DNA of 64,000 nt from Vibrio injensis (GTDB taxonomy: Bacteria > Pseudomonadota > Gammaproteobacteria > Enterobacterales > Vibrionaceae): NCBI RefSeq assembly GCF_001895205.1, contig NZ_BDJF01000027.1:62001-126000 (forward strand), written 5' to 3'. A program made the translations under genes and the position numbers. Shown here piece by piece: positions 2,498 through 59,979 of the stretch. How positions within the stretch are numbered: position 1 is the first letter of the stretch; every line of letters starts with the position of its first letter. A model generated the notes under the pieces. That model was not told the DNA's origin and ran no database searches. It worked only from the letters and a program-made list of their open reading frames with translations.

Positions 2498-3280
2498 TTA
2501 TGGGTTAAAAGCTGAATCTTGTTGACACAAGGCTCTTGCTTGAGCACCAAATACCATCACTACCGCGCACCACATCATCGCAAATACCACCGCAGGACCA
2601 ATCGGCCAATCCCAATAAAGAGAAGCCGCAAAGCCAGCTATCATCGCTATATAGCCTATCGCTAAACCGACAGCGGTTTTACGTTGCCAAGGTACATAGC
2701 ATACCGCTAAAGCCGGTATGATAAGTGACGCAAACTCTAGATATACGCCTAAGTTAATCACGAGCGGCGGGATGGCAAAAGCGAATAGAAAATAAAACGC
2801 TTTACCTTGTAGCCAAGCGAAGCGATAACGCACAACGATTAACATCGCGAGAGCAATAACCAATACGGGAATAACGTCTTGCCATTGAGCCCACAATAAG
2901 CGACCGTTTAATAAACTCTCTATACTTTCTTTACCATGCGGCTGCTGAGCAACCAATAACATTGCTGCACAAGCGGCTAACACATAAAACAGGCCAATGA
3001 AGGCTTCCAAGTGAGTTTTGATTCGCCCCTCAAAAAAGCACAATAACCCTGCCATATTGAAAGTAACAACACTAGCCGCTAGCATTTTCCACCATAAGGA
3101 GCTGCTGTACTGCGGCCACCATAACTCCATCGCTAACATACCGACCGCCGCCATTTGCGCCATCGCTAGGTCAATAAATATCACCCCTCGCTCTAGCACC
3201 TGCCTACCTAGAATCCAGTTGATCCATAAAGAGATAAAGCCAATTAACAATGGGGCTAACATCCATCCGTAAGCACTCAT
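2498..3280 (-). CDS. Metal (zinc) ABC transporter permease, ABC-3 family
   Basis: This 260-residue integral membrane protein has about eight hydrophobic helices and matches the ZnuB/AztB type of ABC-3 permease. Hallmarks are the early segment RGVIFIDLAMAQMAAVG and the central GKESIESLLNGRLLW loop. It would form the inner-membrane channel for zinc handed over by the binding protein encoded just upstream; the stop and start overlap by one base (TAATG), which implies translational coupling. No ATPase gene is adjacent on either side, so the energising subunit must be encoded elsewhere. Zinc specificity is inferred from the His-rich neighbours and the Zur operator. Confidence 0.85.
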   Translation of the reverse strand: MSAYGWMLAPLLIGFISLWINWILGRQVLERGVIFIDLAMAQMAAVGMLAMELWWPQYSSSLWWKMLAASVVTFNMAGLLCFFEGRIKTHLEAFIGLFYVLAACAAMLLVAQQPHGKESIESLLNGRLLWAQWQDVIPVLVIALAMLIVVRYRFAWLQGKAFYFLFAFAIPPLVINLGVYLEFASLIIPALAVCYVPWQRKTAVGLAIGYIAMIAGFAASLYWDWPIGPAVVFAMMWCAVVMVFGAQARALCQQDSAFNP

Positions 3281-4179
3281 TATTGCTCCTTAACTAGGCT
3301 CAATAAGCGCTCAATAGAATCATCAACTAGCGCGATCAATGAGGCCGTATTCGGCTGTCCTCCAACACTTTGCGCTAATTCCACTACCGGCACATTAGTA
3401 CGCGATGCTAACCAGTAAGCCGCGTCTTTAGGCTGGTGAGAAGCATAGACAATACCAGATAAACTCGACCAATCTTGCTGTGCCAAGCGATTTAAATGAC
3501 CCGCCGTTGGTGGGATACCGGGTTTAGGCTCTAAATCCGCAACTTGCTCCATGCCTAACCAATCAAATAAGTAGGCAAAGGTAGTATGATAACCTGCTAC
3601 TTCTCGCCCATTGAGTGGAGCGGCTCGCTCTTGCCACTCTTGCATTTTTTTATGCCATTGCCAGCGAAAACGTGCGCCATTGGCTTTAAACTTCGGAGCA
3701 TCATCGGGGGCTAGCAATGCCAGACGATCACTCAATGCTCGTGACACAGCAATCATATCACCAATCGCAAACTGAACGTGGGGATTACCATGCGCATGAA
3801 CATCGCCCATGGAGCGATCAACATGATCATGCTCATCCAGTAAACGCACATAATCACTGACCCAAAACAAACCAGGCTGACCATGTTGTACTTGACGATT
3901 ACGGCTCTGCCTCTGCAGCTCAGGCAGCCAACCAATTTCCAGCTCAGCTCCAGAGCAAACCACCAAATCGGCATTGCGCATACGCGCAATGAGCGAAGGG
4001 CGAGCTTGTACATAATGAGGATCTTGCAATGCCGTAGTGGCTGAAAAAACTTGTGCCTGCGGCGCATGGGCATGGACTAAGTCAGCCCAATCGGGCTGAC
4101 AAACAAACACATTTAAGCTGGCCATCGCTGGCATACTGACACAAGCGACTAGACTCAATAATTTAAAACGCATGAGCAT
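3280..4179 (-). CDS. Periplasmic metal (zinc) ABC transporter substrate-binding protein
   Basis: This is a ZnuA/AztC-type cluster A-I binding protein of about 299 residues. It starts with a signal peptide (MLMRFKLLSLVACVSMPAMA). A His-rich loop in the middle contains DEHDHVDRSMGDVHAHGNPH, where HGNPH resembles the metal-ligand loop of the family, and a further likely ligand sits in GYHTTFAYLFDWLG. I chose the ATG at 4179 because GGAG lies six bases upstream; it overlaps the end of the outer-membrane gene by 17 bases. An ATG two codons later is possible. It should deliver zinc to the downstream permease. Confidence 0.85.
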   Translation of the reverse strand: MLMRFKLLSLVACVSMPAMASLNVFVCQPDWADLVHAHAPQAQVFSATTALQDPHYVQARPSLIARMRNADLVVCSGAELEIGWLPELQRQSRNRQVQHGQPGLFWVSDYVRLLDEHDHVDRSMGDVHAHGNPHVQFAIGDMIAVSRALSDRLALLAPDDAPKFKANGARFRWQWHKKMQEWQERAAPLNGREVAGYHTTFAYLFDWLGMEQVADLEPKPGIPPTAGHLNRLAQQDWSSLSGIVYASHQPKDAAYWLASRTNVPVVELAQSVGGQPNTASLIALVDDSIERLLSLVKEQ

Positions 4180-5323
4180 GGTGCGCTCCAAAAGACATGA
4201 CATACTGTAAGCTAAAGAGGGTTTGATCGCCCTGAGTGTGATTTTCACGGGTAATTTGTCCACGTACCCGACCAAAATGAGAAGCATGCCAATCTAATGC
4301 GAGATCCCACTCTTTCAAATCATCACGACTGAATTCACCATGGAAATGATCATCATGAGCATGGACATCTCCACTCACGGTGCGCATTTCTCCATAACGG
4401 GTACTGACTGTCCAAGTCGGATTAAATTGATAAGCCACTTCTGCGTACCAACCATTAGCACTTTGTTTTGCGCCCGGAGCTGTCGCCATTTGTGTATCAA
4501 AGCGATTGTCCAAATACCAAAACTCGGTTGTCGCTCTCACATTACGTTGACGATAATTGCCTTCCGGTGCCCATTTCCACGTGAAATCCGTACCGTACAA
4601 ATTACGACCCGTTAATGAGGGCCCATGCGAATGACCGGCATGATCGTGATCATGGTCATGATCGTGGCTGTGATCGTGTGCACCTGAAAACTGACGACCA
4701 TTACCGTTATACAGTGAACTGATTCCCAAACGCCAACTGTGTTCAAGCCCAATATCGGCCCCCACTTGGAGATTAGCCGTGTACACACCCACCGTCGCGG
4801 GCTTATCATAACCAGCATCTAATGGCTTACCACCTAACGCTTCGACGCTGGCTTGCAGATAAAAATCGGTTGGTAATAACCAAGTCATTTGCACACCATC
4901 ATCAAAATAATGGCCGCCAAGTAAGGCGCGATACACTGCCGGACGCTCAACAAAGGCGTCTTCATGCATGTGCTTACTGTTTAAGTAGCCGACATTGGAT
5001 AACAGACGTCCTGCTTTAAGCTTTAAGCCAAACGGTAAACTCATGGTTTCTATCCAGGCCTCTTCCAGCTCTAACTCGGTTTTAGAACCATGGCTATCTA
5101 ATACCGCCACCAATTGACCTTTAAAGTTATGATCGATGTTACTGCTTAACATCAGCTCAGAATGACCAAGGCCAAATCCCTTGTCACGACTTCCCCAATG
5201 GCGATTGTCGCTCTGATAAGCACCATCTAAAACAACACCAATATCGACTTGTGGTGATGCTAAGCTTTGTCCAATAAAACCCATTACACCAAACCCAATC
5301 ACCGCTACGACTGATTTATTCAC
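4163..5323 (-). CDS. Putative zinc-regulated outer-membrane beta-barrel protein with His-rich loop
   Basis: The product has 386 residues and a signal peptide ending near GQSLA-SPQ. The rest has the alternating, aromatic-rich pattern of an outer-membrane barrel and ends in Phe. An internal loop carries alternating His-Asp pairs (HDHSHDHDHDHDHAGHSHG) and a second cluster HAHDDHFHG, well suited to catching zinc. I place the start at the GTG at 5323 because AGGAG lies seven bases upstream; AGGAG would be coding if the longer frame were used. It is first in a three-gene set with the binding protein and permease and is controlled from the Zur site. A zinc-uptake porin role is inference. Confidence 0.7.
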   Translation of the reverse strand: MNKSVVAVIGFGVMGFIGQSLASPQVDIGVVLDGAYQSDNRHWGSRDKGFGLGHSELMLSSNIDHNFKGQLVAVLDSHGSKTELELEEAWIETMSLPFGLKLKAGRLLSNVGYLNSKHMHEDAFVERPAVYRALLGGHYFDDGVQMTWLLPTDFYLQASVEALGGKPLDAGYDKPATVGVYTANLQVGADIGLEHSWRLGISSLYNGNGRQFSGAHDHSHDHDHDHDHAGHSHGPSLTGRNLYGTDFTWKWAPEGNYRQRNVRATTEFWYLDNRFDTQMATAPGAKQSANGWYAEVAYQFNPTWTVSTRYGEMRTVSGDVHAHDDHFHGEFSRDDLKEWDLALDWHASHFGRVRGQITRENHTQGDQTLFSLQYVMSFGAHHAHAF

Positions 5324-5379
5324 CAAGTTTCTCCTATAAATGTACACAATGATTATTGATTACCTATTGATGGCAATGA

Positions 5380-5396
5380 ATGTTATGTTATAACAT
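5380..5396. promoter_or_regulatory. Predicted Zur operator in the divergent zinc promoter
   Basis: The 17-base site ATGTTATGTTATAACAT has perfect 7-base arms (ATGTTAT and ATAACAT) separated by three bases, which matches the core of the gammaproteobacterial Zur box as I recall it. It lies between the His-rich outer-membrane gene (minus) and the His-rich lipoprotein gene (plus), only 41 bases before the latter's start, where a bound repressor could block both promoters when zinc is plentiful. Confidence 0.8.
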
Positions 5397-5437
5397 ATCA
5401 ACAATCAACTACTACTATGGTACTTAAGGAAAAATCC

Positions 5438-6721
5438 ATGTTGTCTCTATCTCATCGTCAAGCCCCTCGGCTGGCTGCACTGTCACTCAGCGTATTATTG
5501 CTATTAGGTTGTCAAGAAGGTGAAAATAACGCCACCAGTAACGAAGACTCCGATCATCATCACTCGATTATTACTTCTCGGCTGCTGATTTCAGAACACA
5601 ATAGCCAAACACTACACCTGTTTGATAGCCAAGCTTGGCGTCAGCGCACCCAATTTACTTTGCAACAAACACCCTCAGGGCTGAAAACCAGTCCGAAGGG
5701 ACGATACGCTCTAGCTCTGCAACGAAATTTTGATCAAGTCGAAGTGATTGATAGTGGTATTGTCGCCGAACAACATGGCGATCATTATCATTTGCACAAT
5801 CATAGTCCGAGATTATTGTCTGATCGCTATCAGGGAGTAAAGCCAACTCACTATGACGCCACACAAGATCAAGTCGCACTGTTTTTTGATGGGGATAGCA
5901 CAAGTAGTGCCAACGCGCAATTTCGCGTGTTAGATGAGCAATCGATAGGTCAAGTCTCTACTGTCGCCTCTCACTCCTTTGATCATGCTCAACATGGCAC
6001 TGCTCAATTGCTGGGTGATTTCGCTTTTACTGGGATTAAAGATCAAAGCACCACTAGCTTGCCGGATAAGGTGATTGCTTTGCAAAGGCATAATGATCAT
6101 TTTCATCAACTTCATAGCTTCCCCGCTCAAAACTGCCCCGCTTTACATGGCAGCGCGCAAACGACAAATTCCGTAGCGTTTGCGTGTTTAGAGCACGTTC
6201 TGATCATCAATGTACAGGGGGAAACGATAACTTCACAAACCATCAACAACCCAACATTTGACAACGGCACTCGCTTTGGTACGTTATTCGGCTATCCAGC
6301 CAGTAATGCGCTGCTTGCGGTGGCGAATAACCAGCAATTCTTTACTTTGAAAAATGGTCATTTTCAGGAAATCAACTGGAAAACTGAGCAAACACAACGC
6401 ACCCTCGCCTATTTAACCACTGAGGATCACTTATTCATTATCACCCCACAAGGAAAACTGATTGCGTACCGAGCGGCGGATGATTTCGCTCAACAATTCA
6501 GCTTATCGCTCTGGGACAATGTACCAACATTAGCTGAAGGTCAACGGATCCAAATGGCTTTTGATCCGAGAAATCAACAGTTATTCATCACCAATCCGGC
6601 AGATCAAACGGTGCTGCAACTCAGCGTGACTGAGCCACGGATTGTACAGCGTCATCAATTAGGCTTTATCCCTCAGTTTATTACTTGGTTAGGCACCACT
6701 GAGCACGAGCATCATCACTAA
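5438..6721 (+). CDS. His-rich lipoprotein, AztD-like beta-propeller zinc chaperone candidate
   Basis: This 427-residue protein starts with a lipoprotein signal peptide and lipobox (LLLLGC). The mature part begins with a flexible acidic/His segment (EDSDHHH) and contains repeated beta-rich blades with conserved turns such as SPKGRYAL and FDPRNQQLFITNP, as in a beta-propeller. His clusters recur (HGDHYHLHNH, HNDHFHQLH) and the last residues are EHEHHH. This fits AztD, the periplasmic zinc chaperone of aztABCD systems, which hands zinc to the binding protein AztC. The ATG at 5438 follows AAGGA at the right distance; an upstream ATG at 5417 lacks one. Chaperone function is inferred from resemblance and context. 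Confidence 0.65.
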   Translation: MLSLSHRQAPRLAALSLSVLLLLGCQEGENNATSNEDSDHHHSIITSRLLISEHNSQTLHLFDSQAWRQRTQFTLQQTPSGLKTSPKGRYALALQRNFDQVEVIDSGIVAEQHGDHYHLHNHSPRLLSDRYQGVKPTHYDATQDQVALFFDGDSTSSANAQFRVLDEQSIGQVSTVASHSFDHAQHGTAQLLGDFAFTGIKDQSTTSLPDKVIALQRHNDHFHQLHSFPAQNCPALHGSAQTTNSVAFACLEHVLIINVQGETITSQTINNPTFDNGTRFGTLFGYPASNALLAVANNQQFFTLKNGHFQEINWKTEQTQRTLAYLTTEDHLFIITPQGKLIAYRAADDFAQQFSLSLWDNVPTLAEGQRIQMAFDPRNQQLFITNPADQTVLQLSVTEPRIVQRHQLGFIPQFITWLGTTEHEHHH

Positions 6722-7087: not shown

Positions 7088-8719
7088 ATGTCGTTTTTAA
7101 AAAATTTAGCCATTCGTAAAAAAATTGCGCTAGCGTTTAGTATTATTGCTGCCGTCAATATTGTTTTTGGTGCTTATCTTTACCGCTCTCTCAATACGAT
7201 TCAGCACGATGTACTTAACCTAACCGACGATACCTTACCATCAATGATGATGGTCAATACCATTAAGTACAATATGTCATCGGTACGTCGAGCACAAATT
7301 GGTCTACTTTCCTCTGATGACAGCCATGAAATCGCCGAAGATATCCGCTGGATGGATGATCACTATCGTGCTATTGATGCCGATTTAGCTCGTTATGAAA
7401 GCAGCATTTGGACCGATTATGAGCGCTCGATTTTTATGCCTGTCAAAAACTTATGGCAAGAGTACTTGCGTGCTTTAAGTTCTTTTAATAACGATATTTT
7501 GAGTAATAACATTACTGAAGCTCAGCGTGATTTACAAAATGCCTATCCAACTTTTGAGCGTCTAGAACTGGCGGTGGATGAGTTACTAAAACTTAATCTT
7601 TCCTATGTCGATAATAACCGCACTGAATTAACAGATTTAATTGATACTATTAGTCAATTCTCTATTTCCAGTATTGTTGCCCTACTTGGCTTTATGGTCT
7701 TTATGACTTGGTTACTGGCGAATTTAATCTGTCGTCCTTTACAACAAGTGGTTACTCAAGCCAACGCGATTGCTGATGGTAACTTAGGCCATCAAATGGA
7801 TCGCCAACAAATTGGTCAAGATGAGCTTGGTGAACTGGCTGACGCTTGCACCACCATGCAAAATAATTTACGTGTGATGGTCGAAGAAATCGTTGCCGGC
7901 GCAACACAATTAACTCAAGCGGTTGATGAAGTCAGCGCGGTATCGGAGCAAACTTCGCAAGGTATGCGAGAGCAGCAAGAAGAAGTGATGCAAATTGCGA
8001 CCGCAATGACAGAAATGAAATCCACCGTGGCAGAAGTGGCACGCAGTACCGAAGTGGCTTCAGATTCTGCCCGTAATAGTAACCAACAAGCCATCACTGG
8101 CGCACAGCAAATGAATGTGGTGGCCAACTCGATTATTCAGGTAACACAAGAGATCTCGCAAGCCGAGCAACGCGTGCTGGAGCTCGAAGATCAAGCGCAA
8201 CAAATTAATATGGTCGTCGATGTGATCAGCAATATTGCTGACCAAACCAATTTGCTTGCTCTCAATGCCGCAATTGAAGCCGCGCGAGCTGGTGAACAAG
8301 GTCGTGGCTTTGCCGTGGTTGCCGATGAAGTGCGAGCCCTTGCAGGCAAAACGCAGCAATCAACGGGTGATATTGTGGCTATTATCCAGAACTTACAAAG
8401 TTGCGCAGCAAAAGCACGCCAAGCAACAGCACAAAGTAGCGAGTTAATGGGCCAATGTGTCAATCAAAGTCATCAGACTCAAGAAGCGATTGAACAAATC
8501 AGCACCCAAAGTGCGCAAATTGCCGATATGACGATTCAAATTGCGAGCGCTTGTGGTGAGCAAGATTCCGTCAGTGAAGAACTAAGCCGCAACATTGAAC
8601 GGATTAATGAGTCAGCGAAACAAGTCGCGCAAGGTTCATCAAGTGCAGCTCAAGCCTGCGTTGAACTTAGTCAACTCGCCGCTCAATTACAAAGCACGGT
8701 CAATCGCTTTCGCGTATAA
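7088..8719 (+). CDS. Methyl-accepting chemotaxis protein
   Basis: This 543-residue transmembrane chemoreceptor signals to CheA/CheW. In order it has a membrane helix at about 13-31, a periplasmic four-helix-bundle ligand domain to about 190, a second membrane helix at about 195-215, a HAMP domain, and a long cytoplasmic coiled coil with the conserved hairpin tip ([21 protein letters not shown], here split over about 378-398). The ligand domain resembles 4HB_MCP; its ligand cannot be told from sequence. There is no C-terminal CheR-docking pentapeptide, so adaptation would depend on other receptors. It is a single-gene unit ending at a strong terminator. Confidence 0.93.
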
Positions 8720-8790: not shown

Positions 8791-9978
8791 TTATAAAACA
8801 GACACAAATGCCCCCTTAACTTTATCATGAGCCAACGCTATCGCTTGGCTTAGATCAGCAATGAGATCATCAGGATGCTCAACACCGATACTTAAACGGA
8901 TCAGTTTATCGGTTATCCCATATTTCTCCCTCTGCTCTTTATCTAAGCCAGCATGAGTTGTCGTCGCAGGATGACAAGCTAAACTTTCCAAATCACCCAA
9001 ACTTACCGATTGCTTGAATAGCACCAGACTATCTAGGCATTTTCTTACCGCATTAAGATCGGATTTTAATTCAAAACTGACCATCGCTCCCCATGCTGGC
9101 GGATTTTTATCATCACGACTTTCGGTTTCTAATCCAGGGAAATAGACTCTTGCTATCAGAGGATGCTTTGCTAAAAACTCCGCGACTTTAAATGCTCCAT
9201 TTTGGTGCAGTTCCATTCTCAAAGATAAAGTCCTTAAACCTCGATGTAATAAGTAGGCTTCTTGAGGACCAAGGCATGATCCAAGTTGCTTATTGGATAT
9301 TCCACGGATGAGATTTAAATAATGGTCGCTCCCTGAAATCACGCCAGCAATAATATCTCCATGACCACTTAAATACTTGGTGGCACTGTGTATAACAATA
9401 TCAATACCCAATTCTATCGGCTTGAGTACAGCAGGAGATAAAAAAGTATTATCACAGACTGTAATCGCACCTATATTTCTAGCTGTACTAACAACTGAAT
9501 GAATATCATTAACTCTGACGGTTGGGTTAGAGATAGATTCAAAAAATATGACTCGAGTATTGGGATTTGCTCGCAGAGTTAAATCCGATACATCAGCGTA
9601 ATGAACAACTTTTATGCCCATTCGAACCAGTAAGTTATCACATAAACTTTGTGTTCCTCCATAAATAGGATCGACAATCGCTAATTCATCGCCGGTATCT
9701 AATAAAGAGAGTAATACACTACTGATTGCTGACATACCACTCGAAACGGCTAAAGATTGTTCAGCCCCCTCCATATTCGCTAATTGAGTTTCTAACATAC
9801 TAATGGTTGGATTACGCATTCGACTATAAACATAACCATTTTCTTCGCCTGAAAAAATCTTTTTACCATTTTCAAAATTATGGTATTCAAATGCACTACT
9901 TTGATAAATGGGTATAGTTAATGAGCCAAATTGATCTTCTATTACACCACTGTGTAGTAATTGTGTTTTATTATTCAT
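8791..9978 (-). CDS. PLP-dependent Cys/Met metabolism gamma-lyase (methionine or cystathionine gamma-lyase type)
   Basis: This 395-residue enzyme belongs to the Cys/Met metabolism PLP family (fold type I). The PLP lysine is K201 in SATKYLSGH, D176 lies in VCDNTF, and phosphate-binding residues are in YSRMRNPT (51-58) and SSGMSA. It would eliminate or replace the gamma substituent of methionine, homocysteine or a related amino acid. After Y106-G107 it has Gly108 where classical methionine gamma-lyases carry a Cys, so true methionine lyase activity is doubtful. It follows the oxygenase gene by 13 bases and is surely co-transcribed with it. Substrate unknown. Confidence 0.85.
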   Translation of the reverse strand: MNNKTQLLHSGVIEDQFGSLTIPIYQSSAFEYHNFENGKKIFSGEENGYVYSRMRNPTISMLETQLANMEGAEQSLAVSSGMSAISSVLLSLLDTGDELAIVDPIYGGTQSLCDNLLVRMGIKVVHYADVSDLTLRANPNTRVIFFESISNPTVRVNDIHSVVSTARNIGAITVCDNTFLSPAVLKPIELGIDIVIHSATKYLSGHGDIIAGVISGSDHYLNLIRGISNKQLGSCLGPQEAYLLHRGLRTLSLRMELHQNGAFKVAEFLAKHPLIARVYFPGLETESRDDKNPPAWGAMVSFELKSDLNAVRKCLDSLVLFKQSVSLGDLESLACHPATTTHAGLDKEQREKYGITDKLIRLSIGVEHPDDLIADLSQAIALAHDKVKGAFVSVL

Positions 9979-9991
9979 ATTTATCTACTTT

Positions 9992-10987
9992 TTAGTTTTT
10001 AACGATAGTTTTATAATATTTATTAGCCACTTCAGGATGAGATCTTAAACGTCCTTTTAATACATTATCTCCCACTTGATAGAATAGTGGATTATTGGGG
10101 TCTGAAGTTGGGCCCAAAGCTTGATTTTTTAACTTTTCTGGTAGTAATAATTTAGGAACCCGACTCTCTAATCTAGGGCCCATAAAATAAGCAATAGAGA
10201 ACCGCTCCTGTCCATGATTAGGGCTTACTACACGATGTTCAGTTGCCTTTAAATAGCCATCTGAAGCAAGCTCGAGTAATTCACCAATATTCACAATTAA
10301 GGTGTCTTTTTTCGGTGGAACCGCGAGCCATTTATCATTAATTAATACTTCGAGACCACTAACCTTATCTTGGAGAAGTAACGTTAAATAACCTGGGTCT
10401 TTGTGTGCTCCTACGCCTTGACGTGAAGAGCTCTGTGCCGAATCAACATAAGGATAGCGGATCAACTTTAGATGTTGATATGGATTACCCATTATCGAGT
10501 GATTAAATACATCAGGATCTTGTTCTAACGCCAAAGCAAAGGCTGATAACAACTCTTGAGCAATAAAAGACAGATCATTCATAAAGTCTAAAATAAGCTC
10601 ACGCATATGAGGAATACTTGCTGGCCATTGATTAGGACCATAAATATTCATCCATAGCGGTGAGTCTTCTAATTGCCTTGCTGGTTCTTCATTCATGACA
10701 TCAAACTGTTCACGTATATCTATGCTCCCTTTAGTTTTTTCCTCTCCAATACCAGAAAAACCTCTGAAATGTGGGGAGTTAATCATGGAAACTTTATTTT
10801 TCTCTTCTGAAGATAAAGTGAAAAAATCAGTGGCTATATGATGAATATGATTGATTTTTTCATTATTAATACCAAAATCTGATAGATAAAAAAAACCAAC
10901 CTCTCTTGCAACTCGGCTAAGTGAATAAATAAATTGGTCTCTATTGGAGTAAAGTTCAGCTAAAGATAGCGTTGGTAATTCATGCAT
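9992..10987 (-). CDS. 2-oxoglutarate/Fe(II)-dependent oxygenase, isopenicillin N synthase-like
   Basis: This 331-residue enzyme has the double-stranded beta-helix core of the isopenicillin N synthase-like group: an N-terminal DIOX_N segment with GFFYLSDFGI, then the iron ligands H195 and D197 (GAHKDPG) and H251 (ATEHRV), and the co-substrate residues R262 and S264 (ERFSIAYF). It would use O2, and usually 2-oxoglutarate, to hydroxylate, desaturate or cleave a small molecule. It leads the gene pair with the downstream gamma-lyase, which suggests an amino-acid substrate. Ribosome-binding site GGAG precedes the ATG. Base composition is more AT-rich than in the flanking genes. Exact reaction unknown. 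Confidence 0.85.
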   Translation of the reverse strand: MHELPTLSLAELYSNRDQFIYSLSRVAREVGFFYLSDFGINNEKINHIHHIATDFFTLSSEEKNKVSMINSPHFRGFSGIGEEKTKGSIDIREQFDVMNEEPARQLEDSPLWMNIYGPNQWPASIPHMRELILDFMNDLSFIAQELLSAFALALEQDPDVFNHSIMGNPYQHLKLIRYPYVDSAQSSSRQGVGAHKDPGYLTLLLQDKVSGLEVLINDKWLAVPPKKDTLIVNIGELLELASDGYLKATEHRVVSPNHGQERFSIAYFMGPRLESRVPKLLLPEKLKNQALGPTSDPNNPLFYQVGDNVLKGRLRSHPEVANKYYKTIVKN

Positions 10988-11045
10988 TGTTATTTTCTCC
11001 GTAGTTTATATTCTATTTTAATAAAACCATTATCACGAAACGTTA

Positions 11046-11055
11046 TCACTAGTGA
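11046..11055. promoter_or_regulatory. Palindrome upstream of the oxygenase gene
   Basis: TCACTAGTGA is a perfect 10-bp palindrome about 60 bases before the oxygenase start. It is flanked by ACGTT on the left and AACGT on the right, extending the symmetry loosely. It may be an operator, but short palindromes also occur by chance. Confidence 0.3.
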
Positions 11056-11121
11056 GTAAAAACGTAGGTGTTTAATAAATCACAAAATTAAGATTTAATA
11101 GGCCCTTACCATAAAAAGTGA

Positions 11122-11319
11122 TATACCCAAACAACTTGGAGTTGCAGGTAGACGGCAAGTGAGTGACAAATTTGTCTGGAACAAATTTGAACAGCCGTAG
11201 GCTGGCCTTTGGTGAGAGCCACGGATGGCTCTCATAATCCCCATGAGCATAGATAGACTATGTGATTGGGGCGAACGAACGTAGCCAACACCCCTGCAGC
11301 TTCAAGTAGGAAGGGTATA
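11122..11319 (+). repeat. ERIC-type (IRU) repeat with an internal insertion
   Basis: The ends TATACCC and GGGTATA are complementary. The left part (CCCAAACAACTTGGAGTTGCA...GGCAAGTGAGTGA) and the right part (TGATTGGGGCGAACGAACGTAGCCAACA) match the enterobacterial repetitive intergenic consensus as I remember it. The full length of about 198 bases exceeds the usual 127. The extra block of about 70 bases after GAGTGAC holds hairpins, including GAGAGCC/GGCTCTC, like the long ERIC variants known from Yersinia. It lies between the hydrolase and oxygenase genes. Confidence 0.8.
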
Positions 11320-11439
11320 TTTAAATTTAGGCCAAGTTAAATGTTCTATTAATAGCTAATCTAGTCGTTTTTAAGCATGGATATTGATATCTATTATTTC
11401 TCCATAAAATTAAATCTAATTGCTAATTTTAAATAAATA

Positions 11440-12027
11440 TTATTTAAATGAATTAACATTTCGTTGGACTTGTAATTGAATATCATCAATAAGTGCTTTT
11501 ACTTCCGGCCATGGTCCATGTCCTGACTCAATATTAATATGACCAACATAACCCGCATCGTAAGTCAGTAAGCCCAAATCAGAAGCTAAACAGCAAGCAT
11601 GGTCATAGTTCATCCAAGGATCATTTCTACTTACTACCATGGTCCCCAAAACACCAAGGGCGCGAATTGTTAACGTTTCAACAATCGAACGTTCGTTCGG
11701 AAAATCAGCCCTATGACCATAAGAAGTGAATCGATACGGCGAAGCCGGTGCAACAAATAAGACACCACTCACTTTTGATTGTAACTGTTTTCGAACGATA
11801 GCATCTAAAGCGGCTAAGCAACCGAAGCTATGAGCAATGATGATAATGGGTAGCGTTTGCTGCTCTAGATACTGTTGGATCTGTGCTGACCATTGACTAA
11901 GAATCGGTTTATGGTGATCAATCTCCTTTATCCTCTCCGTGTTAGGGTATTGAGTCTGAAGCCATGTTTGCCAATGCCCATTAGGGCTGCCTTTATAACC
12001 TGGAATCACCAAAATTTTATCTATCAT
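11440..12027 (-). CDS. Small alpha/beta serine hydrolase, RBBP9/YdeN family
   Basis: This 195-residue cytoplasmic hydrolase has the compact alpha/beta fold of the RBBP9/YdeN group. The nucleophile is S67 in AHSFG, with probable partners D136 (VSRNDPW) and H163 (GHINIESGHGPWPE), which is the conserved end of the family. The ATG at 12027 follows AGGGA by seven bases; a TTG two codons earlier lacks this spacing. A sigma-54-like promoter sits 42-57 bases upstream. It may be the first gene of a cassette continuing through the ERIC element into the oxygenase and gamma-lyase genes. The substrate is unknown; family members are esterases or amidases. Confidence 0.82.
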   Translation of the reverse strand: MIDKILVIPGYKGSPNGHWQTWLQTQYPNTERIKEIDHHKPILSQWSAQIQQYLEQQTLPIIIIAHSFGCLAALDAIVRKQLQSKVSGVLFVAPASPYRFTSYGHRADFPNERSIVETLTIRALGVLGTMVVSRNDPWMNYDHACCLASDLGLLTYDAGYVGHINIESGHGPWPEVKALIDDIQLQVQRNVNSFK

Positions 12028-12068
12028 ACTCAATCCCTAATCAATATAGATGAATGTAACCTATTGAT

Positions 12069-12084
12069 TGCACAAGTCATGCCA
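12069..12084 (-). promoter_or_regulatory. Candidate sigma-54 promoter of the hydrolase gene
   Basis: On the minus strand TGGCATGACTTGTGCA has the invariant GG and GC separated by exactly 10 bases and differs from TGGCACGN4TTGCA at only two positions. Transcription would begin near 12058, leaving a leader of about 30 bases before the ATG at 12027. A sigma-54 activator gene is divergent and adjacent. Confidence 0.6.
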
Positions 12085-12167
12085 AATCAGCGAATTTTAT
12101 AAATTAGTTAAATATCAATGTAATCAACTGAAAATTAATGGTTTTCACATCTCTATTTCACTAAAAA

Positions 12168-12199
12168 ATTCCATATAACTTTTTATTACTATATGGAAT
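12168..12199. promoter_or_regulatory. Candidate upstream activator site for the sigma-54 activator
   Basis: Perfect 10-base inverted arms ATTCCATATA (12168-12177) and TATATGGAAT (12190-12199) lie about two helical turns apart. The centre is about 100 bases upstream of the -24 element of the hydrolase promoter, a usual distance for enhancer sites, and about 75 bases before the activator's own start. Confidence 0.5.
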
Positions 12200-12257
12200 A
12201 AAAACTCATTTCTAAATAACAATAAACCCTTTAAATTTAACAGGTATTCCTCGAAAA

Positions 12258-13259
12258 ATGAGTATGAAAAAAATGGTTATTGGCGAAAATCACGGTCTAA
12301 AACAAACAATGCAGCAAGTACAATTGGTTTCATTGACTGATTCTACAGCTCTTATCCTTGGGGAGACCGGATCTGGAAAAGAAGTGATTGCCCGTTATAT
12401 CCATAATCACTCACAGCGATTTCAAAACGACTTTATCCGAGTAAACTGTGGTGCTATCCCTTCGGAACTGATTGATTCAGAATTATTTGGGCATGAAAAA
12501 GGCAGCTTTACTGGTGCAATCTCTCAAAAAAAAGGATGGTTTGAACGCGCCGATGGCGGTACGTTATTTTTAGATGAAATAGGTGAATTAAGTTTAGCGG
12601 CTCAAGTGCGCTTATTACGAGTATTACAAGAAGGCTCATTTACTCGGGTTGGAGGGGAAAGAGAAATCAGCGTTAACGTTCGTATTATTGCTGCTACACA
12701 TCGAAATTTAGAACTCTCTGTCCAGCAAGGATTATTTAGAGAGGACTTATGGTTTCGTATTAATATTTTTCCAATTCATCTACCAGCATTGCGCCAACGC
12801 TTTGGTGACATGCAACAACTCACCGAGCATTTTGCTCACAAAGCGTCCAATCGTCTAGGTTTACCCCTTTGTTTACCAAGTGATGAACAGATAGATTACT
12901 TAAAACGCTACCATTGGCCAGGTAATGTCAGGGAATTACAAGCCATTATCGAAAGAGCGGCGATTTTAGGACAGGGAAAATATCTTGCCATTGAGCAATC
13001 GTTAATCTTACAACCTGACTCTTTGCAAGAGCCCACCACATCTCCACTAAACAGTGAAAGTCATGCAGAAGTCTCATCATTCCTTAGTTTAGAGAAGGTG
13101 ATATATGACCATATTTGCAATGCGTTACGTCATTGCCACGGAAGAATAGAAGGTCCTTTTGGAGCCGCTAAACTACTCGCTATTAATCCAAATACTCTAC
13201 GTTCAAAAATGCGTAAATTAAATATATCTCGTCATGCTTGCCATCATTACCGTTCCTAA
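12258..13259 (+). CDS. Sigma-54-dependent transcriptional activator lacking a sensor domain
   Basis: This 333-residue bacterial enhancer-binding protein begins directly with the AAA+ domain. Visible are Walker A GETGSGKE, the sigma-54 contact loop as GSFTGA (usually GAFTGA), Walker B GGTLFLDEIGEL, and the family segment WPGNVRELQ. A Fis-type helix-turn-helix lies at the C terminus (GAAKLLAINPNTLRSKMRKL). The central domain resembles FhlA-type activators, but there is no receiver, GAF or PAS domain, so its activity must be set by abundance or a partner, as with PspF. It is divergent from the hydrolase, which has a sigma-54-like promoter. The start could also be the ATG at 12264. Confidence 0.88.
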   Translation: MSMKKMVIGENHGLKQTMQQVQLVSLTDSTALILGETGSGKEVIARYIHNHSQRFQNDFIRVNCGAIPSELIDSELFGHEKGSFTGAISQKKGWFERADGGTLFLDEIGELSLAAQVRLLRVLQEGSFTRVGGEREISVNVRIIAATHRNLELSVQQGLFREDLWFRINIFPIHLPALRQRFGDMQQLTEHFAHKASNRLGLPLCLPSDEQIDYLKRYHWPGNVRELQAIIERAAILGQGKYLAIEQSLILQPDSLQEPTTSPLNSESHAEVSSFLSLEKVIYDHICNALRHCHGRIEGPFGAAKLLAINPNTLRSKMRKLNISRHACHHYRS

Positions 13260-13263
13260 AATC

Positions 13264-13378
13264 TATACCCAAACCATTTGGAGTTGTAATGAGTGAGCGC
13301 CAATGAACATAGCGTGTCTATGTTCATTGTAGGATCGAACGTAGCCAACACCTTTTCAGCTTCACGTAGGAAGGGGAT
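13264..13378 (+). repeat. ERIC-type repeat, short variant
   Basis: The sequence starts TATACCCAAACCATTTGGAG and ends GCTTCACGTAGGAAGGGG, with GATCGAACGTAGCCAACACC inside. It has the same orientation as the copy at 11122 but lacks the internal block and part of the left arm. It lies just after the activator stop and before the secF terminator. Confidence 0.75.
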
Positions 13379-13385
13379 AAACCGT

Positions 13386-23972: not shown

Positions 23973-24902
23973 TTAAACTTTCAATAAAGCACCACGTGGA
24001 GTGTGATTAAAATGGCGTTTATACTCTCGGCTAAATTGTGAAGGACTGGTATAACCGACCAGCCGCGCAGCATCATTGACTCGCTTACCCTCGATTTGAA
24101 TTAACTCTTTGGCTTTATTTAAACGGACTTTTTTAAGGTACTGCAAGGGCGATTCCATGGTAACACCACGAAAAGCTTGATGAAAAGCGGAAATACTCAT
24201 GTTCGCTTCTTCTGCTAACGCATTAACCGTTAAAGATGTGGCGTAATCACGATGTACTTTACTCAGCGCTTTCGCTATTCGAGCATAATGTCCCTCGTGA
24301 TGAGCCAATTCAAACAACACATACCCCTCTGCGCTGGTTAACGCTCGAAAAGCCATCTCTTCAAGTAAAGATTGCCCTAATAGCTCAGCCTCCAGTCCAT
24401 CAATCAAAGCATTCATCAGCCGTTTACAACTGTTAAGCATGGGCGGATTCATTTGTACCGATTTCAGGCCACAAGGATTATTAGCATCCACTGACGGTTG
24501 AAAACCGTTTTCCTCTAAAGCGGCGACCTGTTTGAGCAATAGTGAATGCTCAATATCAATCGTTAACCCCAATAATGGTTGATTCTGTTTCGCTACCGCT
24601 TCACATTCCAGTGGCATCGGCACCCCCACCACCAGATAGTCGTTCGGCCCATAATCGACGGCAATTTCCCCTAAATGGATGCGTTTCTGACCTTGACCTA
24701 AAATCACGATCCCAGACTGATAGATAAACGGCTGACGCGGGTTACCTTGACTACTGCGATAAAACCCTACCCCAGAGATCGCAGTGTCCACACAACCTTC
24801 GAGTTGATGCAACGCATATTTATCGACATAGTTTTGCATCAATTGCGCCAGATCGGCATTTTTCTCAGTTTGACTCACCATTCTGTCCATATCATCAACC
24901 AT
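23973..24902 (-). CDS. yqhC: AraC-family regulator, YqhC-like
   Basis: This regulator of about 309 residues has an N-terminal AraC_N cupin-like domain (about 15-175) and a C-terminal pair of helix-turn-helix motifs (about 210-305, with NMSISAFHQAFRGVTMESPLQYLKK split in two and a second in DAARLVGYTSPSQFSREYKRHF). It is divergent from a YqhD-type aldehyde reductase gene, exactly as E. coli YqhC stands next to yqhD, which it activates in response to reactive aldehydes. The start is uncertain: ATGs at 24902, 24890 and 24881 and a TTG at 24917 are all possible and none has a strong ribosome-binding site. Confidence 0.82.
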   Translation of the reverse strand: MVDDMDRMVSQTEKNADLAQLMQNYVDKYALHQLEGCVDTAISGVGFYRSSQGNPRQPFIYQSGIVILGQGQKRIHLGEIAVDYGPNDYLVVGVPMPLECEAVAKQNQPLLGLTIDIEHSLLLKQVAALEENGFQPSVDANNPCGLKSVQMNPPMLNSCKRLMNALIDGLEAELLGQSLLEEMAFRALTSAEGYVLFELAHHEGHYARIAKALSKVHRDYATSLTVNALAEEANMSISAFHQAFRGVTMESPLQYLKKVRLNKAKELIQIEGKRVNDAARLVGYTSPSQFSREYKRHFNHTPRGALLKV

Positions 24903-35881: not shown

Positions 35882-36994
35882 TTAAGAGTGAGTCACCACA
35901 ATGTCTCGCTGAGTGACACTTACCCCTTTAATCTGAGCATAGACCTGCATACCAACGTGTAAACCTAGCTCTTGTAGCGCCCATTCAGTAATCGTTGACC
36001 ATAACCAACAGCCGTCGGCTAAAGTTAATTGTAGCGCGACACTTTTACGGATTTCTCCTTGCTGAAGATGCTCGATACGGGTGATTTTTACCGGCAAGAT
36101 ATTGCGAATTGATGTCGCTTGAGGAAACTGCCGTGCCACTGACACATCGGTAGCGCGGATTTGTAAACGCACTCTCTGCCCCTCTACAGCATCTTCAATT
36201 TGCTGTACCCATAAACCGACCTGCTCACTCAAAGCAACATAACTCAGACCATAATCTAGACGGTGATGAGTAAGATTGCCTACTAGCAAAGTACTTTGTT
36301 CGCTGAACGACTGCCATGGACGCATCAACGAGGAGGACCATACCTGCTCAATCGGCCCAGATAACCGCTCTCGTCCTTGATCTAATAGCACCAAATGATC
36401 CGCTAAGCGTAAAATCTCACTCATGCTATGCGTCACATACAAAATAGGAATGTTGATCTGCTGACCAAGGCGCTCTAAAAAAGGCATGACTTCTCTCTTA
36501 CGAGGTAAATCTAACGAAGCCAGTGGCTCATCCATCAATAATAAGTCAGGTTTGGATAATAAAGCCCGACCAATCGCGACCCGCTGTTTTTCGCCTCCCG
36601 ATAAATCATGTGGATAACGTTCAAGTAACGCATTTAGACCTAACAGACTCACTATCGACGTAAAATAGCCATCGTCGGCAACCGATACACCATAAGTCAG
36701 GTTACCACGCACTCGATAGTGGGGAAAAAGTCTTGCTTCTTGGAAGACATACCCTATTCGACGCCGCTCAACAGGAATATTAATCCCCTGCTCAGAATCA
36801 AATAACACTCGATTCGCTGTTTTTATATAACCGGAATCTGGTTGTTCTAAGCCACTGAATAAGTTAATTAATGTCGTTTTTCCTGCACCTGAACGGCCAA
36901 AGATGGCACTGACACCACGGCTGGGCAAGCGCAAATCAACATCAACCTGCATACAACCAAGCTGCTTTTTCACTTTTAGATGGAGGTCGGTCAT
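35882..36994 (-). CDS. modC: Molybdate ABC transporter ATP-binding protein
   Basis: This 370-residue ATPase energises molybdate import. It has Walker A GRSGAGKTT, signature LSGGEKQRVAIGRALL, Walker B LLLMDEPLASLD, and a C-terminal TOBE (Mop-like) molybdate-binding domain (about 280-365). The ATG at 36994 overlaps the modB stop as ATGA, so the frame's upstream extension is not used. It is the last gene of modABC. Confidence 0.95.
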   Translation of the reverse strand: MTDLHLKVKKQLGCMQVDVDLRLPSRGVSAIFGRSGAGKTTLINLFSGLEQPDSGYIKTANRVLFDSEQGINIPVERRRIGYVFQEARLFPHYRVRGNLTYGVSVADDGYFTSIVSLLGLNALLERYPHDLSGGEKQRVAIGRALLSKPDLLLMDEPLASLDLPRKREVMPFLERLGQQINIPILYVTHSMSEILRLADHLVLLDQGRERLSGPIEQVWSSSLMRPWQSFSEQSTLLVGNLTHHRLDYGLSYVALSEQVGLWVQQIEDAVEGQRVRLQIRATDVSVARQFPQATSIRNILPVKITRIEHLQQGEIRKSVALQLTLADGCWLWSTITEWALQELGLHVGMQVYAQIKGVSVTQRDIVVTHS

Positions 36995-37692
36995 TGATTC
37001 ATCCCTAAGCGACGGCGTGTACGCCGATTCAACCATTCAGAAAAAAACAGCGACAATAAGGCAATCACAATCGAAATAAGACACAAACGGGCGGCTTCCA
37101 TTTCTGAACCGGGAGTCTCGAGAAAATTGAACATCGCTAACGGTAGGGTTTGTGTCTCTCCTGGAATATTGGAGACAAAACTGATCGTCGCACCAAACTC
37201 ACCTAAACTGCGTGCAAAAGAGAGCATCGTGCCGGTAATAATCCCAGGTAAAGTCAACGGTAAGGTGATGGTAAAAAAAACTTTCAGCGGCGACGCTCCT
37301 AATGTGCGCGCAGCTTGCTCAAGCCGAGGATCAACCATTTCAATACTCAAACGAATCGCTCTGACCATCAAAGGCAAAGAAATCACAAAACAAGCGAGTA
37401 CGGCTCCACGCCAGCTAAAACTAAAAGACACGCCAAGCCATGTCTCTAACCAGCGACCAATAACGCCTTGTTTGCCCATAGTAATTAACAATAGATAACC
37501 GACGACAATTGGTGGCAATACCAAAGGGAGATGAATAAGACTATCGAGAATGCCTTTACCGATGAATGTTTTTCTCGCCAATACCCAAGCAAGGATAATA
37601 CCAATCGGCAGCAACCAAATAATGGTATAAGTGGCGACTTTCAGACTGAGTTGCAAAGCAAGCCATTCATAATCACTGAGCAAACGGTTCAT
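36991..37692 (-). CDS. modB: Molybdate ABC transporter permease
   Basis: This 233-residue membrane protein has five to six helices and the ABC permease EAA loop LEQAARTLGASPLKVFFTITLPL (here from about residue 130, split). It forms the molybdate channel as a dimer. I place the start at the ATG at 37692, which overlaps the end of modA by 20 bases and gives the usual length MNRLLSDYEWLALQLSLKVA; longer starts run far into modA. Confidence 0.93.
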   Translation of the reverse strand: MNRLLSDYEWLALQLSLKVATYTIIWLLPIGIILAWVLARKTFIGKGILDSLIHLPLVLPPIVVGYLLLITMGKQGVIGRWLETWLGVSFSFSWRGAVLACFVISLPLMVRAIRLSIEMVDPRLEQAARTLGASPLKVFFTITLPLTLPGIITGTMLSFARSLGEFGATISFVSNIPGETQTLPLAMFNFLETPGSEMEAARLCLISIVIALLSLFFSEWLNRRTRRRLGMNQ

Positions 37693-38455
37693 GCGCCATC
37701 TCTGTGGTAAATCCATAGCGAGCCAATATCGACTTTCCCGTTGGTGACGTGGCATAATCAATAAAAGTTTGGTTGCTTGGCTTATCCGTCAACCTCAATA
37801 GAGGATAATGAATGGTATTGTGTAAACTGACATCAAATACGGTCAAGGTCGTCACTTTATCACTCGATTGAGCATCAGTTTGGTAAACCATTCCCAAAGA
37901 TGCCTCGCCTCGCTCGACCAAAGCCAGAGCTGAACGAGCATTATTAGTCGGAGCCAAATAAGATCGCACCTCATCCCAAACCCCAAGCGAACTCAGCACT
38001 TGCTGAGCATAAATACCAATAGGTACGGCCTCCGTATTACCAACCGCTAAACGGCTTTTGGCTAATCGCTGTAGCCATTGCTGCGAGTCAGCGGCATCAA
38101 ATGGTGCAGAGGAAGCCGTAGCCGGCTGGATCAACACCACACGGTTACCAGCAATTAAAGTTACATTTTCACGGCCAATATGTAGCTTCTCGATCAGATA
38201 CAGTGCCCAGTCATCATTGGCGGCTAAAAATAGATCCGCTGGCGCACCACGCTCAATTTGTCGGGCTAAAGCGGAAGACCCACCAAAAACAGGCACGACT
38301 TTTGTAGGATGGCTCGCCTGATAGTGCTTAATCAATTCGTTGACGGCGTTGGTCATCGACGAAGCGGCATATAAGTGGAGCGTCTGTTGTGCCAACAACG
38401 AGGGACTGAACACCAGCAGCAATAATGAAAATGCACCTTTTAACCCTTTCAACAT
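37673..38455 (-). CDS. modA: Molybdate ABC transporter substrate-binding protein
   Basis: This 260-residue periplasmic protein captures molybdate or tungstate. A signal peptide (about 1-22, ending LLAQQ) is followed by LHLYAASSMTNAVNELIKHY, the oxyanion-binding serine region, then FGGSSALARQIERGAPADLFLAA and a C-terminal TNNARSALALVERGEASLGMVYQTDA, all typical of ModA. It is the first gene of modABC. Control by ModE is expected but I did not find its operator by eye. Confidence 0.94.
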   Translation of the reverse strand: MLKGLKGAFSLLLLVFSPSLLAQQTLHLYAASSMTNAVNELIKHYQASHPTKVVPVFGGSSALARQIERGAPADLFLAANDDWALYLIEKLHIGRENVTLIAGNRVVLIQPATASSAPFDAADSQQWLQRLAKSRLAVGNTEAVPIGIYAQQVLSSLGVWDEVRSYLAPTNNARSALALVERGEASLGMVYQTDAQSSDKVTTLTVFDVSLHNTIHYPLLRLTDKPSNQTFIDYATSPTGKSILARYGFTTEMAHEPFAQ

Positions 38456-59823: not shown

Positions 59824-59851
59824 AATCAAAAATGAGTAAGATATATAATCA

Positions 59852-59979
59852 ATATTCCCTTTCTACTTGACGCTGCAACGGTGTTGGCTAGGTCCGTTAT
59901 CCCAATCACATAGTCTGCCTATGCTCATAGGGCTGCATTCACTTACCGCCTACCTGCAACTTCAAATAATTTGGGTATC
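59852..59979 (-). repeat. ERIC-type repeat, full-length form
   Basis: Read on the minus strand it begins GATACCCAAATTATTTGAAG, contains GGTAGGCGGTAAGTGAATGC and GTGATTGGGATAACGGACC, and ends CAAGTAGAAAGGGAATAT. At about 128 bases it matches the standard ERIC length. It has the opposite orientation to the copies at 11122 and 13264 and sits downstream of the carboxypeptidase gene. Confidence 0.8.

Follow-up and report, generated by a model that had tools for sequence, protein, structure and literature searches.

The DNA analysed here, referred to as the window, is a 64-kb stretch of a 3.67-Mb Vibrionaceae genome. The host is a Vibrio close to V. metschnikovii, with a hydrolase that is 96% identical to the counterpart in V. 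metschnikovii CIP 69.14. At the locus, this serine hydrolase gene and the gene of a sigma-54 activator diverge from an intergenic region of ~230 bp, which contains a candidate -24/-12 promoter, two overlapping dyads and a conserved block (Table 1). The listed open reading frame of the hydrolase starts slightly upstream of the ATG, at an in-frame TTG (12033). Residues S67, D136 and H163, which we take from the family assignment to be the catalytic triad, are invariant in all nine aligned homologues (the window genome, two Vibrionaceae and 6 of the 21 distant loci discussed below). The hydrolase shares family and catalytic residues with the RBBP9/YdeN serine hydrolases (PDB 1uxo, 3bdv), while its own sub-group differs by being linked to sulfate operons.

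Table 1. Features of the hydrolase-activator locus; positions refer to the window.
Feature	Position	Strand	Basis or remark
Cys/Met-metabolism PLP enzyme gene, downstream of the hydrolase	8791-9978	-	PF01053
2OG-Fe(II) oxygenase gene, next downstream of the hydrolase	9992-10987	-	Pfam PF14226, PF03171
Serine hydrolase gene, RBBP9/YdeN family	11440-12027	-	ATG 12027-12025; Pfam PF06821, 168 bits (cut-off 22)
Candidate sigma-54 (-24/-12) promoter of the hydrolase, TTGGCATGACTTGTGCA	12069-12085	-	Sequence; best weight-matrix site of the window
Perfect dyad ATTCCATATA-N12-TATATGGAAT	12168-12199		Perfect over 10 bp
Conserved intergenic block of 53 bp, putative regulator-binding region	12173-12225		38/53 columns identical
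Overlapping dyad TTTTTATT-N9-AATAAAAA	12180-12204		Better conserved than the perfect dyad
Sigma-54 activator gene (333 aa) encoding an AAA+ domain with GSFTGA loop and a putative Fis-type HTH; N-terminal sensor domain absent	12258-13259	+	Pfam

The activator combines a full AAA+ domain (PF00158, 234.1 bits) with a probable Fis-type HTH, which scores 21.8 bits on PF02954 at a cut-off of 22, aligns with the relatives over the HTH and reaches 28.7 bits in the relative from P. piscicida. As the AAA+ domain starts at residue 7 and the open frame of 347 aa adds just 14 residues, there is hardly any sequence in front of it. The open frames of the four Vibrionaceae activators measure 347, 344, 344 and 328 aa, and a sensor domain is absent from all of them. 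An A-run lies inside the gene at 12526-12533, and in V. metschnikovii CIP 69.14 (L041) the frame is broken at this homopolymer, which may reflect a sequencing error in the draft assembly, a real loss or a variable tract.

Both genes downstream of the hydrolase are on its strand. At E 1e-80 or better the oxygenase was found in 2 of 286 family genomes, those of the window and of V. metschnikovii, and the PLP enzyme is methionine gamma-lyase-like, below the family cut-off (TIGR01328, 401 bits; cut-off 549.7). The weight matrix described below gave no -24/-12 site scoring above 9 in 10988-11440, i.e. none private to these two genes. Terminator-like sites were not found in 10950-12300, hence transcription may read through from the hydrolase into the oxygenase and PLP-enzyme genes. 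A repeat element of ~200 bp (11121-11322), which is absent from this position in V. metschnikovii, is inserted between hydrolase and oxygenase and could alter such read-through. Partial copies are located at 59851-59978 and 13264-13379, and matches occur in 29 records of a plasmid collection, mostly from Enterobacteriaceae and Vibrio, with 76-94% identity among the ten matches listed. Further along the same window, three consecutive ORFs at 3280-6721 carry histidine-rich stretches; one of them resembles, by eye, a metal-binding periplasmic protein, and together they are perhaps a zinc-uptake island.

Sigma-54 promoters are characterized by a GG and a GC exactly 10 bases apart, in the surroundings YTGGCAYR and TTGCW. 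On the minus strand of the intergenic region, GG (12083-12082) and GC (12071-12070) show exactly this spacing, and TTGGCATGACTTGTGCA departs from the consensus at a single position, a G for a T in the -12 element. Counting 12 bases from the C of the -12 element puts the predicted transcription start near 12058, with a leader of ~31 bases to the hydrolase ATG. A preliminary description of the locus had reported a sigma-54-like site with 10-base spacing, a leader of about 30 bases and a perfect 10-base dyad, and all of these are in the sequence as described. With a weight matrix built from the published consensus, the site has the top score of the whole window. Two more matches score high, at 5897-5913 and 24835-24851 on the minus strand; the former, antisense inside an ORF, is probably due to chance.

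In first-order random sequence, 0.65 sites per 64 kb score as high or higher (mean of 20). The motif by itself therefore proves little, and its position and conservation must carry the argument. Its score was not matched by any of 400 shuffles of the 200-bp stretch in front of the hydrolase. The pattern TGGCAYRNNNTNTGCW occurs five times genome-wide, versus twice for a reversed-pattern control, and 10 of 319 control tiles (200 bp, window, both strands) reach a score of 11.5, about the level of the sites in the related loci G098, G038 and G295. The genome encodes RpoN (510.9 bits, cut-off 277.35).

Close relatives of the pair are rare. Activators at E 1e-100 or better were found in 3 of 196 genus genomes, the window genome included, and 5 of 296 family genomes, including those of the window and V. 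metschnikovii, gave hydrolases at E 1e-30 or better. The informative loci are G098, G038 and G295, with activators 70-71% and hydrolases 53-56% identical to the window copies; G098 and G038 are nearly identical to each other (98% for the activators). No additional close activators emerged when the neighbourhoods of G098, G295 and the window genome were searched, with 148 genomes in each case. Plasmid records yielded the P. piscicida relative and more distant activators; the three of these distant ones whose surroundings were inspected lay beside other genes, two being Nit6803 clusters in Acinetobacter.

When the window genome, G098 and G295 were aligned on the GG, 8 of the 18 columns of the promoter core were identical, versus 5/42 upstream and 5/36 in the leader (9% by chance). 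Three of the eight belong to the anchor TGG itself; without it, 5 of 15 columns are identical (binomial p ~0.009). All three informative loci retain the -24 element TGGCA, a T, the TG of the -12 element and the position of the site. Their -12 element reads TGAT, not TGCA, and the resulting change of GC to GA in 3/3 suggests that the promoter is weakened there, which is the chief finding to speak against a perfect promoter in these loci; the window promoter also outscores all three sites.

The comparison was extended to nine units beside related activators (the window genome, G098, G038, G295, P. piscicida, G937, G988, G947 and G918), eight of which contain sulfate-transport genes. In every one, the top-scoring -24/-12 site within 200 bp upstream exceeds at least 95% of shuffles, with 0/400 in four units, p values of 0.005-0.01 in three, and 0.035 and 0.0475 in the others. 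The distance from the GG to the start codon is 51-61 bases in 8/9 units (for G098, 58 if the three bases of the start codon are counted in and 55 in the column alignment), while the site of G918 is 135 bases away. The P. piscicida site is weak (score 6.4). The sites of the distant units were first spotted by eye and then shuffle-tested, and the start codons of G937 and G947 were chosen by us. Left out of the test were G836 (L059), where the first gene is unclear and a loose search gave a -24/-12-like site at 8716, and G428, G399, G469 and G932, where no sulfate genes lie close by. In G947 (L060, 4235-5900) a small DUF2292 protein and a Porin_O_P porin are encoded between a strong -24/-12 site and the gene of the sulfate-binding protein, the DUF2292 protein coming first, then the porin, then sbp.

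We think that this recurring position is the strongest evidence, as far as sequence comparison goes, both for the identity of the promoter and for its service by activators of this kind. The site at 12069-12085 is very probably a sigma-54 promoter, and we consider it likely, with only slightly less confidence, that the divergent activator serves it. It is very unlikely that the hydrolase instead owes its expression to a sigma-70 promoter, with the -24/-12 match being fortuitous. The rate of equally good sites in random sequence would allow this, and one sigma-70-like pair, matching at 9 of 12 positions, is present on the hydrolase strand (12216-12188). This pair, however, lies ~160 bp before the ATG; a simple scan detected nothing close before the hydrolase and fewer sigma-70-like sites than in shuffles (1 vs 5.5), and the -24/-12 site recurs at the corresponding position in relatives.

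In a tree of 27 activators, the window activator falls into a clade of 13 (support 0.961). Nine of the 13 are encoded near sulfate transporters; for G836 the transporter is ~4 kb away, and the members with none nearby are those of the window genome, G428, G399 and G469. The binding proteins of G918 and G836 score as sulfate-binding. Outside the Vibrionaceae, members of the clade have at least 468 aa and carry an extra N-terminal region, for which a weak Pfam match was obtained in G918 only (GAF, below the cut-off). The phage shock activator PspF is likewise short and sensorless, an AAA+ domain plus HTH, and the window activator appears to have the same build. It does not, however, pass the PspF family cut-off (TIGR02974, 262.8 bits versus 443.55), and its clade is tied to sulfate transport.

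The hydrolase shows the same tie. Its gene is directly followed by sbp-cysT-cysW-cysA in G098, G038 and G295, and a gene for a Cbl-like regulator adjoins the operon in G098, with a partial match in G038. Close to its 5' end, the cysA of G098 (L038, 2853-3889) gives matches in two overlapping frames and may be frameshifted at this point. More distant homologues, 35-40% identical, occur in Acinetobacter, betaproteobacteria and a few others, and sulfate-transport genes share the locus in 17 of 21 (L010-L030), a count that leaves out L009 (V. metschnikovii, no transporter nearby); the negatives are L010, L011, L029 and L030, all but L029 being short loci. The full order sbp-hydrolase-cysT-cysW-cysA-cbl is found in 11 of the 17. 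A sigma-54 activator match at E 1e-10 was found in none of the 21 distant loci. In L012-L028 (17 loci), an RBBP9-type hydrolase thus accompanies sulfate-transport genes, mostly between sbp and cysT, without a sigma-54 activator.

In the window genome and V. metschnikovii the sulfate transporter is absent from the unit, which leaves a sulfur role here by descent only. The window itself contains only weak matches to cysA, cysT and cysW at 36332-37734, 24 kb away, with 32-34% identity and no sbp match; they probably belong to another ABC system. Elsewhere in the genome there are two additional genes for sulfate-binding proteins, one of them accompanied by a cysTWA set, so the transporter missing from the unit is not its only one. 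Since relatives of both activator and hydrolase adjoin sulfate-uptake genes, the unit is probably a sulfur-scavenging switch, and from this linkage we consider it probable that it is sulfur-related in the window species, too. The description of the locus as a "private" switch with "unstudied output" therefore calls for revision, as activator and hydrolase are members of a larger group associated with sulfate ABC transporters.

The arms of the perfect dyad are 22 bp apart from centre to centre, and the dyad centre is ~100 bp from the promoter GG. With up to three mismatches, the pattern has a single occurrence in the window and none in 100 shuffles. Perfect 10-bp inverted repeats as a class are not rare in the window; with spacers of up to 20, there are 40 overlapping start positions (16 places), versus 0-4 in ten random sequences. 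All 10 pairs are present in the window genome and V. metschnikovii, which count as one observation because they are nearly identical here. In G098, G038 and G295 only 3/10 remain, the level of shuffled letters (mean 2.8-2.9 of 10). Judged by this alignment, the perfect dyad is not a conserved enhancer. The overlapping dyad keeps 8/8 pairs in the window genome and V. metschnikovii, 7/8 in G098 and 6/8 each in G038 and G295. It is part of the conserved block, whose flanks are identical in 9/16 columns on the activator side and 4/23 on the promoter side (window genome, G098 and G295; chance 9%). The conservation of the block suggests that something probably binds there; the candidates are the activator itself and a regulator of CysB/Cbl type acting on the activator gene.

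For the preliminary description, these comparisons have a mixed outcome. Its assignment of the perfect dyad as the enhancer is not upheld, since the dyad is lost in three orthologous loci that keep both genes, while the overlapping dyad and the block are largely kept there. The proposed sigma-54 promoter with its divergent activator is supported by rpoN, the full AAA+ domain and sites in 9/9 units, 8/9 of them at 51-61 bases, apart from the -12 GC, which is not kept in the three orthologous loci. The description had also named the conservation of both sites in relatives as a check and their joint loss as a counter-argument. The -24 element and its position are kept in 3/3, the perfect dyad drops to 3/10 pairs, and because one motif alone is lost the claim survives.

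Two readings of the block can be weighed. In one, a tentative reading, the perfect dyad is still the enhancer of the activator, which would bind there, ~125 bp upstream of the start, as two dimers aligned on the same helix face. The dyad-to-start distance falls in the usual range of enhancers, the perfect 10-bp arms 22 bp apart are unique in the window, and the dyad sits in the most conserved intergenic block. Its right half, GTTATAT, is kept in the window genome, G098 and G295 and reads ATTATAT in G038. The GTTATAT arm recurs in a 7-bp dyad of P. piscicida, ATATAAC-N9-GTTATAT, located upstream of the porin. On the other hand, the left half is not kept and the pairing is lost in G098, G038 and G295 despite 70% identical activators. 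With the exception of P. piscicida, the more distant units have no comparable sequence in front of them as judged by eye; inspection of inverted and direct repeats by eye in L034, L058, L060, L061 and L062 gave no common enhancer motif, and some AT-rich repeat candidates in distant units overlapped start codons. By eye, a pair of GTTATWT repeats 42 bp apart is also present in the window locus, with similar spacing in the Vibrionaceae.

In the other, equally tentative reading, dyad and block would form a CysB/Cbl-type (LysR) box for the activator gene, so that sulfur starvation acts via CysB/Cbl on the activator and from there via sigma-54 on the hydrolase, as in the SfnR arrangement. The dyad centre lies ~55-60 bp before a plausible activator start (by eye), matching the placement of CysB sites. 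CysB activation sites consist of convergent half-sites centred 50-60 bp upstream of the start, and the CysB consensus is very weak, a point against this reading (PMC11329422). The heptamer TTATTCC (a dyad arm plus two bases) occurs in the same orientation upstream of E. coli cysP, cysK, cysD and tauA (4/6) and of cysP in the window genome (1/2), with shuffle fractions of 0.04-0.09 each (either strand) and a background of 19 per 100 kb in E. coli and 9 in the 64-kb window (both strands). The Cbl-like gene beside the G098 operon and the partial match in G038 also fit this reading. TTATTCC is, however, absent upstream of E. coli cysJ and ssuE and of sbp in the window genome; in G098 and G038 it is on the other strand, nearer the activator, and in G295 it is absent. 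Being chosen after viewing the locus, not positionally kept and without a sigma-70-like activator promoter on the plus strand in the simple scan, the motif is a lead rather than a result. The two readings of the block stay level.

The missing transporter also raises the question of whether the unit is a decaying remnant, the V. metschnikovii lineage having lost the transporter and hydrolase and switch having gone out of use. The broken activator frame in V. metschnikovii CIP 69.14 and the repeat element behind the window hydrolase would agree with this. We regard it as unlikely, because in the window both activator and hydrolase are intact with the catalytic residues kept, the promoter outscores those of G098, G038 and G295, and the frame break, at a homopolymer of a draft assembly, may be a sequencing error.

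Taken together, the comparisons favour the following mechanism, which as a whole we hold to be fairly probable: a sigma-54 promoter opened by a sensorless activator that is controlled by its amount, descended from sulfate acquisition and responding to sulfur limitation. The unit would descend from a sulfate-acquisition switch, the same activator and promoter standing before hydrolase-sbp-cysT-cysW-cysA in related Vibrionaceae. As the activator lacks a sensor domain, the signal most likely controls its amount; sulfur limitation would most likely raise this amount via the block at 12173-12225. The activator would then form a ring, meet sigma-54 polymerase at the promoter and drive transcription of the hydrolase gene, perhaps together with that of the downstream oxygenase and PLP-enzyme genes. 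The motif, its partial conservation, the domain make-up and the gene linkage can be read directly; from them we infer the use of sigma-54, the binding of the activator, the sulfur signal and the co-transcription.

The nearest known design is SfnR of Pseudomonas, a regulator that, going by the title of its reference, is reportedly under CysB control, dependent on sigma-54 and essential for the metabolism of dimethyl sulfone. By description, it resembles the activator studied here as a sigma-54 activator for a sulfur-scavenging unit, and SfnR, too, is not known to carry a sensor domain. The outputs differ: sulfone and sulfonate monooxygenases for SfnR, the hydrolase with oxygenase and PLP enzyme here, and the hydrolase with the sulfate transporter in relatives. 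sbp-cysTWA operons with Cbl/CysB share the transporter set and the hydrolase in G098, G038, G295, Acinetobacter, betaproteobacteria and a few others, whereas in the window species the sigma-54 activator and promoter are present and the transporter is missing.

A search for sulfur-related words in the main text, as far as available, of two surveys of sigma-54 regulons and a study of RpoN in V. parahaemolyticus gave no such unit (PMC12316311, PMC3162934, PMC9817140), and among the matches listed from CC-licensed PMC papers, in the parts seen, none describes this arrangement. In an A. baumannii cysteine auxotroph, the available part of the report states that cysTWA, cbl and sfnG are raised together, which was read as sulfur starvation; this fits the sulfur setting of the distant hydrolase relatives, the hydrolase not being named in that part (PMC13344012).

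On a wider view, which we put forward as speculative, the small activator clade (9/13 with the extra N-terminal region, four sensorless) would form, in scattered Gammaproteobacteria, a sulfate/sulfur-acquisition regulon laid over CysB/Cbl control, with the RBBP9-type hydrolase regularly accompanying sulfate transport. Within the V. metschnikovii group, this switch would have been cut from the transporter and rewired to the hydrolase-oxygenase-PLP set for organic sulfur. For the activator and hydrolase, which had no prior assignment here, the analysis provides a testable function, sulfur scavenging, and it suggests a link between sigma-54 control and the uptake of sulfate. Several proteobacterial groups keep the serine hydrolase next to sulfate transporters, as an unexplained component of a textbook pathway.
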